This document shows, piece by piece, positions 39,190-40,808 of a stretch of 45,999 nucleotides of DNA. The number at the start of each line of letters is the position of its first letter. The first letter of the stretch is position 1. Position numbers and translations under genes: made by a program. The notes under the pieces were generated by a model. It was not told the origin of the DNA. It was given only the letters and a program-made list of their open reading frames with translations, and ran no database searches. The DNA comes from a virus, in the IMG/VR virus record IMGVR_UViG_3300032282_004665, positions 1 through 45,999 of that record; one strand, 5' to 3'.

Positions 39190-39407
39190 TGGCTACTGAA
39201 TATTGGGCCGTACGAGTAACCGACAATAAGAAGAATCATTATTTTTTTACTGGTCCTCTTGGCGGTTTTATCACTAAGAATAAAAACGAAGCTACATTTG
39301 CTTTTACTGAAGACCAAGCCAATGAACTTGGTAATGTAATGCTTGAGTTTCTTAAGTATTCTATTGCTGGAAAGCTTACTAATTCGCCTCTAAAGTCTAA
39401 AAAGTAA
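39189..39407 (+). CDS. Small protein of unknown function
   Basis: The 72-residue product begins 'MATEYWAVRVTDNKKNHYFF' and is followed by 'TGPLGGFITKNKNEATFAFT', a beta-rich start followed by a helix. It is coupled to the preceding gene by a TAATG overlap, forming a three-gene unit from the promoter at 38615. No domain is recognised. Confidence 0.6.
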   Translation: MATEYWAVRVTDNKKNHYFFTGPLGGFITKNKNEATFAFTEDQANELGNVMLEFLKYSIAGKLTNSPLKSKK

Positions 39408-39464
39408 TAAGTGTATAATGATTCTATAATAAATATAGAATAGAAGTTATTAAAGAGTATTAAA

Positions 39465-39701
39465 ATGCTTATGAGTAAAGTTCCTGAATGGTTAAACGAA
39501 CCAGACATTAGAACCTATAGTATTGAAGTATTTGTTTTAGATTATGTTATGTATGGCGAACGAACATCCAAGACAGGATATTTGTTAACTCTCCATAGAA
39601 ATGGAAAGATTAGACAATGCCACTTTATCACAAATAAGAAAAAAGCAGAATCAGTAGGTAAGAAGTATATGAAAGAACAAGGAGTTTCTATAGATAATTA
39701 A
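39465..39701 (+). CDS. Small protein of unknown function
   Basis: The 78-residue product may begin at ATG 39465 or at the ATG two codons downstream. It contains 'DYVMYGERTSKTGYLLTLHR' and ends in a basic helix 'NKKKAESVGKKYMKEQGVSI'. The upstream 57 nt include TATAAT at 39425 without a TGTACA-like partner. No family recognised. Confidence 0.55.
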   Translation: MLMSKVPEWLNEPDIRTYSIEVFVLDYVMYGERTSKTGYLLTLHRNGKIRQCHFITNKKKAESVGKKYMKEQGVSIDN

Positions 39702-39819
39702 CTAGACCTATAGACCTGTATATGCGTGCATGTAAAGATAAATTAAGATATTTTTAAATTCAATGAAGCTATCATAATAAGTATATAGGACGCGGGTTCA
39801 ATTCCCGCCACCTCCACCA

Positions 39820-39918
39820 TAGACACATCATGAGGTGCTAGTTGCATGGCACATTAGAACAAAATGCAACCCACTACATAATAGTGATCATAAAAGTAGT
39901 GAGTGATGTGTCTATGAT
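39820..39918 (+). other. Intervening segment of the permuted tmRNA precursor
   Basis: This 99-nt segment joins the CCA end of the acceptor piece to the 5' end of the coding piece. Its ends pair: 39818-39830 with 39904-39916 form 13 perfect base pairs that extend the acceptor stem. It is expected to be removed by RNase P, RNase Z or similar maturation to give two RNA pieces. Confidence 0.85.
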
Positions 39919-40008
39919 GGGGGTGATAGGGATCGACTAATACTGAATAGATAGTGGAGAATCGGCAATGCTGAAGTCGTTAGGATTGAGAATTTCTTGA
40001 TCAAAGAA

Positions 40009-40062
40009 GCAAAAGTAAATGTCAACGATAATGTTGCACATGATTATGCCCTAGCGGCCTAA
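40009..40062 (+). other. tmRNA proteolysis-tag reading frame (AKVNVNDNVAHDYALAA)
   Basis: Starting at the GCA resume codon, the frame encodes AKVNVNDNVAHDYALAA and a TAA stop. The NDN block is typical of alphaproteobacterial tags and the ALAA end is the ClpXP degron. The exact resume codon is inferred from the usual Ala start. Confidence 0.85.
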
Positions 40063-40133
40063 TCTGCGTCCGGTGGGAACGTGGAAACAGAATCCCACCA
40101 CTAATTCGGTAACCTAACAATGAGACCTATGTA

Positions 40134-40808
40134 ATGGACCTATACAAAGACAAAACAACAATAAACCAAACGATTATTGATGATGCTGGTCCATGGATGT
40201 GGCCGGAAAATGATAGAGGAGCTTCTGAATCTATAGATTTTATTGGAAAAATTGACCCAGGTGGATGGACAGCTTCTGATTGGGTAGTAAATCATAAAGA
40301 AAATTTGCTTAAACTGTTTGCTGATCGTGATAAAAAAGTAGTAGTACAAGCTGGCGGATGTGCTGGCCTATATCCTAGACTATTATCAAATATATTTGAA
40401 ACAGTATATACATTCGAACCAGATAAACTTAATTTCTATTGTCTAATTAATAATTGTCAAAAAGATAATATAATTGCTATTAATGGTGCTCTTGGTTCTC
40501 AGCATTCAATGATTACACTCAGTGAATTAGACGTTGGAAATATTGGAATGCATAGAGTAATCAAGACTAATAAGAGTTTTATTCCGGTATTTACTATTGA
40601 TGATCTTGCACTAAATAATTGTGATTTGATATGGCTAGATGTAGAAGGTTATGAATATAATGTCATTCAAGGAGCTCTTCGTACTATAGAAAAGTTTAAA
40701 CCAGTTCTTATTATGGAAACTTATTCTAATTCTATTGCTAGACAATTGAATCGATTCGGCTATAAGTATTTTAATAGATGGAATAATGATAACGTAATTT
40801 TACCATAA
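40134..40808 (+). CDS. FkbM-family methyltransferase
   Basis: A 224-residue SAM-dependent methyltransferase of FkbM type. The SAM site is 'KKVVVQAGGCAGLYPRLLSN' (about residue 65), the acidic end of the second strand is 'TVYTFEPDKLNFYCL', and the diagnostic 'TIDDLALNNCDLIWLDVEGY' with 'EYNVIQGALRTI' follows. These enzymes O-methylate sugars or similar groups; they are common in marine phages, possibly modifying glycans. The N-terminal 60 residues are an unusual extension. The gene lies between the tmRNA and tRNA-Gln, with no ribosome-binding site better than 'gagacc'. Confidence 0.85.
   Translation: MDLYKDKTTINQTIIDDAGPWMWPENDRGASESIDFIGKIDPGGWTASDWVVNHKENLLKLFADRDKKVVVQAGGCAGLYPRLLSNIFETVYTFEPDKLNFYCLINNCQKDNIIAINGALGSQHSMITLSELDVGNIGMHRVIKTNKSFIPVFTIDDLALNNCDLIWLDVEGYEYNVIQGALRTIEKFKPVLIMETYSNSIARQLNRFGYKYFNRWNNDNVILP

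Follow-up and report, generated by a model that had tools for sequence, protein, structure and literature searches.

The permuted tmRNA locus

The window analysed here is the whole of a viral contig of 45,999 bases, which carries genes for gp23, the gp44 clamp loader and RegA, in keeping with the T4-like phage context proposed earlier. tmRNA is a bacterial RNA that frees stalled ribosomes and marks incomplete proteins for degradation. The initial annotation had placed a permuted two-piece tmRNA gene at 39751-40115, and covariance-model searches bore this out with significant matches to RF04321 (tmRNA_permuted; 39757-40062, 108.9 bits, E 1.8e-20, curated cut-off 47 bits) and RF01849 (alpha_tmRNA; 39713-40102, 81.3 bits, full-length at model positions 1-355, cut-off 50 bits). 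ARAGORN independently called a permuted tmRNA at 39724-40153, and both models and ARAGORN agree on a locus at 39757-40102. The span first given was about right and takes in the alpha-type 3' hairpin. The acceptor end, with its CCA, lies 5' of the coding piece, which is the permuted order. The locus is an intact, phage-borne two-piece tmRNA gene of the alphaproteobacterial type, and its features are as follows.

39429..39435, plus strand: ATAAATA, a T4-like late-promoter motif, 36 bp before a small ORF (39465-39701)
39757..39819, plus strand: acceptor piece (RF04321 and RF01849 alignments, ARAGORN, direct reading, pairing)
39769-39773 and 39780-39788, plus strand: P2 3' strands, within the acceptor piece
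39792-39808, plus strand: T-arm, GCGGG-TTCAATT-CCCGC
39809-39815, plus strand: acceptor 3' strand CACCTCC, with U70 at 39813, followed by the discriminator A and CCA (39817-39819)
39820..39918, plus strand: intervening segment of 99 nt (fold, comparison with other permuted tmRNAs)
39919..40020, plus strand: coding piece, 5' part (Rfam alignment, direct reading)
39919-39925, plus strand: acceptor 5' strand GGGGGTG, with G3 at 39921
within 39919..40020, plus strand: D-loop region GGGATCGAC, then the P2 5' strands
39984-39989 with 39997-40002 (GATTGA/TTGATC) and 39993-39996 with 40006-40009 (TTTC/GAAG), plus strand: proposed pseudoknot PK1, drawn by hand
40021..40062, plus strand: tag frame, GTC, VNDNVAHDYALAA, TAA (ARAGORN, tag frames compared across phage and cellular sequences)
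40072..40099, plus strand: 3' hairpin GGTGGGA ... AACAGAA TCCCACC, an alphaproteobacterial 3' element (RF01849 match)

The two acceptor strands form all seven pairs of the acceptor stem, including the G3:U70 pair (G39921:T39813), which is the identity element for alanine. P2 is also formed across the two pieces, by AGTAT (39780-39784) with ATACT (39940-39944), TAG (39786-39788) with CTA (39937-39939) and CTATC (39769-39773) with GATAG (39950-39954), confirming the acceptor-first arrangement and the pairing across the gap that had been read from the sequence. The linker ahead of the D-loop is one base below the usual length. The T-loop is TTCAATT in the window and in the related contig L051, and GGCAGTA in the nearest full-length relatives, L066 and L063. 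The window does not have the atypical GGCRGTA-like T-loop of the sampled cellular alpha copies, a common cellular trait that RF01849 does not demand.

The intervening segment continues the acceptor stem through 13-bp arms, CATAGACACATCA (39818-39830) and TGATGTGTCTATG (39904-39916), and the fold of 39809-39925 has an energy of -51 kcal/mol (z -6.7) that was equalled by none of 200 shuffled sequences. A similar outer helix, built from other sequences, is found in most permuted tmRNAs of phages and in many of those from cells, and the spacer is probably a processing hairpin that is cut from the precursor. The median spacer length was 82 nt in 25 phage copies, a set picked in part by patterns that fix spacer length, compared to 33 nt in 24 sampled cellular copies. 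Free of this bias are the copies L061-L071, which were reached via a neighbouring gene and have spacers of 28 to 157 nt.

Within the coding piece, a pseudoknot is proposed at 39984-40009, ending 11 nt before the resume codon; the first of its stems could form in L066 as well (GATTGG/TCGATC). In the same region of L066 (1560-1623), a 21-bp unit occurs three times without a mismatch. The encoded tag VNDNVAHDYALAA (40021-40059) ends in ALAA and is followed by the stop codon TAA (40060-40062). In the cellular and most of the phage copies compared, the resume codon stands directly ahead of the N-D-N-like core, after a short A/T-rich stretch; since ARAGORN also puts it there, the tag is taken to start at GTC 40021, which follows TAAAT. 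The intact NDN-type tag and stop of the initial annotation were therefore upheld, with the start moved downstream by four residues: the AKVN that had opened the tag (AKVNVNDN...) lies upstream of the resume point. The resume codon is GTC in the window compared to GCN in all 24 cellular sequences examined. A single genome-contig scan for a valine-resume NDN-type tag in cells gave nine matches, none alphaproteobacterial by title, and ARAGORN found a tmRNA in only one of these, a Clostridia MAG with a standard-type gene and the tag VNDNNRVAMAA, so that valine resume codons exist in cells too.

Conservation, context and upstream signals

The acceptor stem is fully paired and G3:U70 invariant in all 25 phage sequences, a result close to a selection criterion because the extraction script demanded at least six of the seven acceptor pairs; the evidence therefore lies in the compensatory changes at acceptor pairs 4 to 6 and not in the pairing itself. 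In the 3' hairpin, all six inner pairs are kept in 15 of 15 alpha-type phage copies with three to five pair types per position, a count somewhat inflated by a search that maximised pairing over a few offsets, and with a doubtful partner in L064. As the 3' hairpin and the acceptor stem covary across phages, the RNA is under selection, and the acceptor-coding pairing on which the initial annotation had staked its reading is conserved in related phages. The comparison with L051 gave a similar picture: identity in the flanks is about 88 to 98%, and the spacer matches at 94 of 99 positions (five differences), while the mature segments are identical except for one base of the 5' flank. The phage tags are intact and mostly end in LAA, VAA, QAA, MAA or IAA, with -MSA in one lineage. 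Covariation together with phage-specific tags indicates that retention of these genes serves a purpose.

The tmRNA lies between the small ORF at 39465-39701 and an FkbM-type methyltransferase gene, with tRNA-Lys and tRNA-Gln nearby (ARAGORN), in a neighbourhood partly common to L003/L066, L004/L063, L051 and L054. The closest relatives, the IMG/VR contigs L051, L054 and L066, encode the same tag in a similar neighbourhood; L066 differs from the window in its alpha-type T-loop and in the repeated unit of its pseudoknot region. A tmRNA was found in 15 of 41 related viral contigs above the cut-off, many of which are fragments. None was found in L005, a relative whose downstream gene shows 82% identity, so the tmRNA is dispensable in some relatives. 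The gp23 of the window is nearest to those of Stenotrophomonas phage DLP6, Sinorhizobium phages and Melnitz, and phiM12, phiN3 and DSL-LC03 contain no permuted tmRNA. SmpB (PF01668) was searched for in 24 phage records, the window among them and several being fragments, and was detected in none of these but in 10 of 14 controls. Because no SmpB was found in these records, the phage tmRNA presumably uses the SmpB of the host.

No dedicated promoter beyond chance was found directly upstream of the window tmRNA, and no intrinsic terminator within 39300-40300. The nearest ATAAATA is the copy at 39429, ahead of the upstream ORF, which is a candidate promoter for a transcript that could run into the tmRNA. 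Of the 19 plus-strand copies of this motif in the window, 12 fall within the 120 bp ahead of an ORF start, stretches that together make up 16% of the window; the total number of copies is not enriched over shuffles. ATAAATA stands 65-89 nt before the CCA end in 13 of the 25 phage copies (L061, L062, L064, L065, L067-L071, L073, L098, L106, L107), some of which are near-duplicates and so represent fewer independent cases, and about nine of the 13 also have, at the 16-17 nt spacing of sigma-70 promoters, a TTGAC-type -35 box. ATAAATA is missing from that place in every sampled cellular copy.

The phage copies comprise an alpha type and a beta type, the latter in Stenotrophomonas and Xanthomonas phages. 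Beta-type permuted tmRNAs were observed in the Stenotrophomonas phages DLP6 (L095 1501-1722) and Moby (L097 1501-1767); that of Moby has a GTC resume codon and its deposited record has no tmRNA annotation. Xanthomonas phage XacN1 (AP018399.1) has a GOLLD RNA (RF02032, 227 bits; L096 2840-3253) near its permuted tmRNA, and two identical-scoring tmRNA places (37231 and 356026) that perhaps lie in terminal repeats. A permuted-tmRNA match of 90 bits in L105 (IMGVR_UViG_3300006414_000101) was not called by ARAGORN, and L059 has the same pattern match.

Tree analysis placed all of the 25 phage copies apart from the 24 sampled cellular copies with 92/78 support, the sequences being short and diverged and the cellular set being the best-scoring part of one sample in which SAR11-like bacteria may be absent. 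Capture from an alphaproteobacterial host had been suggested from the tag. The alpha type is supported by RF01849, and the gene may have been captured from a host long ago, but the separation of phage from sampled cellular copies in the tree gives no support for a recent capture.

Proposed function and alternative readings

The features of the locus point, with high confidence, to a functional alphaproteobacterial-type two-piece tmRNA (ssrA) that would work in ribosome rescue; its processing, charging, tagging and benefit are inferred. A single precursor RNA containing both pieces and the spacer would be transcribed, and host tRNA-processing enzymes would excise the spacer hairpin, with RNase P cutting at 39918/39919 and a 3' nuclease trimming after the CCA. 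The acceptor and coding pieces would stay joined via the acceptor stem and P2, and host alanyl-tRNA synthetase would charge the molecule through G3:U70. Together with host SmpB the charged tmRNA would enter ribosomes stalled on broken mRNA, translation would restart from the GTC at 40021 and append the peptide A-VNDNVAHDYALAA, directing the product to host ClpXP-type proteases. The likely benefit would be the freeing of ribosomes during the breakdown of host and phage mRNAs.

The same gene could instead make an inhibitor or decoy that blocks trans-translation in the host by tying up its SmpB or the stalled ribosomes, a role that was proposed for the TLD-only tmRNA of mycobacteriophage DS6A, has a precedent in the inhibition by such a molecule (PMC4131195; PMC11915505), and would fit phage records without an SmpB of their own. 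A decoy needs no conserved tag, however, and the intact tag frame with its protease-type C-terminus, along with the maintained 3' hairpin and P2, makes this role highly improbable. The wide variation of tags between phages would suit a tag that directs chosen host proteins to proteases, or spares phage products, instead of recycling ribosomes, and degradation of host proteins was proposed by the authors of the Melnitz study (PMC9004378). Tagging depends on ribosome stalling and not on protein identity, though, and the C-terminus is an ordinary protease signal with no sign of selectivity here, so selective tagging is considered unlikely.

The patchy presence among related contigs, including the absence from L005, could also be read as the trace of a degenerate or passively captured host ssrA copy that plays no part in infection. 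Against this stand the covariation across deeply diverged phage copies, the paired acceptor stem with G3:U70 that every one of the 25 has, the nearly identical mature regions of L051 beside a varying spacer, and the separation of the phage copies from the sampled cellular alpha copies. As these argue for long retention under selection, passive carriage has hardly any probability, and a working tmRNA in ribosome rescue is the preferred reading. A broader and more speculative proposal, which we regard as rather doubtful, is that T4-like phages maintain a two-piece tmRNA lineage that is old and distinct from host copies. Some branches of it would resume at a valine codon, its structured spacers would be unusually long and might be set free as small RNAs, and many of the phages would drive the gene from a dedicated promoter with both early (sigma-70) and late (ATAAATA) signals. 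If true, ribosome rescue would be under phage control throughout infection.

Comparison with known tmRNAs

The phage-borne ssrA genes of the Bxz1 group of mycobacteriophages, mycobacteriophage Wildcat and Bacillus phage G resemble the window in being carried by phages, but are standard one-piece genes and not known to be permuted. Alphaproteobacterial cellular tmRNAs share with the window the permuted order, the acceptor stem with G3:U70, the NDN-type tag, the 3' AACAGAA hairpin and, in many cases, a spacer hairpin; the window differs in its spacer (99 nt compared to a median of 33), its T-loop (TTCAATT compared to GGCGGTA-like) and its resume codon (GTC compared to GCN).

A two-piece tmRNA on a T4-like phage had been expected to be striking, but a count from 2021 already listed 53 two-piece genes among 133 unique phage tmRNAs, 50 of them from aquatic phages, including the T4-like Melnitz and Mosig (PMC9004378, published 2022), and a 2025 database holds 79 phage tmRNAs (PMC11915505). 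Melnitz (MZ577097.1, a Methylophilales phage) and Mosig (MT647606.1, a Pelagibacter phage; tmRNA annotated as SsrA in its record) infect aquatic bacteria, and like the window they encode a permuted tmRNA of the alpha type in which the acceptor stem, a tag and the AACAGAA-containing 3' hairpin are present; no SmpB was found in Mosig. Their tags (ANDNYVPVDYALAA and GEDNFALAA) are unlike that of the window, and the tmRNA of Melnitz is closely followed by a glutamine riboswitch and preceded by a promoter-like site of its own, neither of which was found in the window. The long spacers, the valine resume codon in some phages and the promoter-like signals upstream of about half of the phage genes are possibly new details. 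The infection roles given for phage two-piece tmRNAs in the papers found are proposals, and the window tmRNA, a well-preserved further case of these known genes, adds to this little-studied group a conserved example with comparative evidence of selection.
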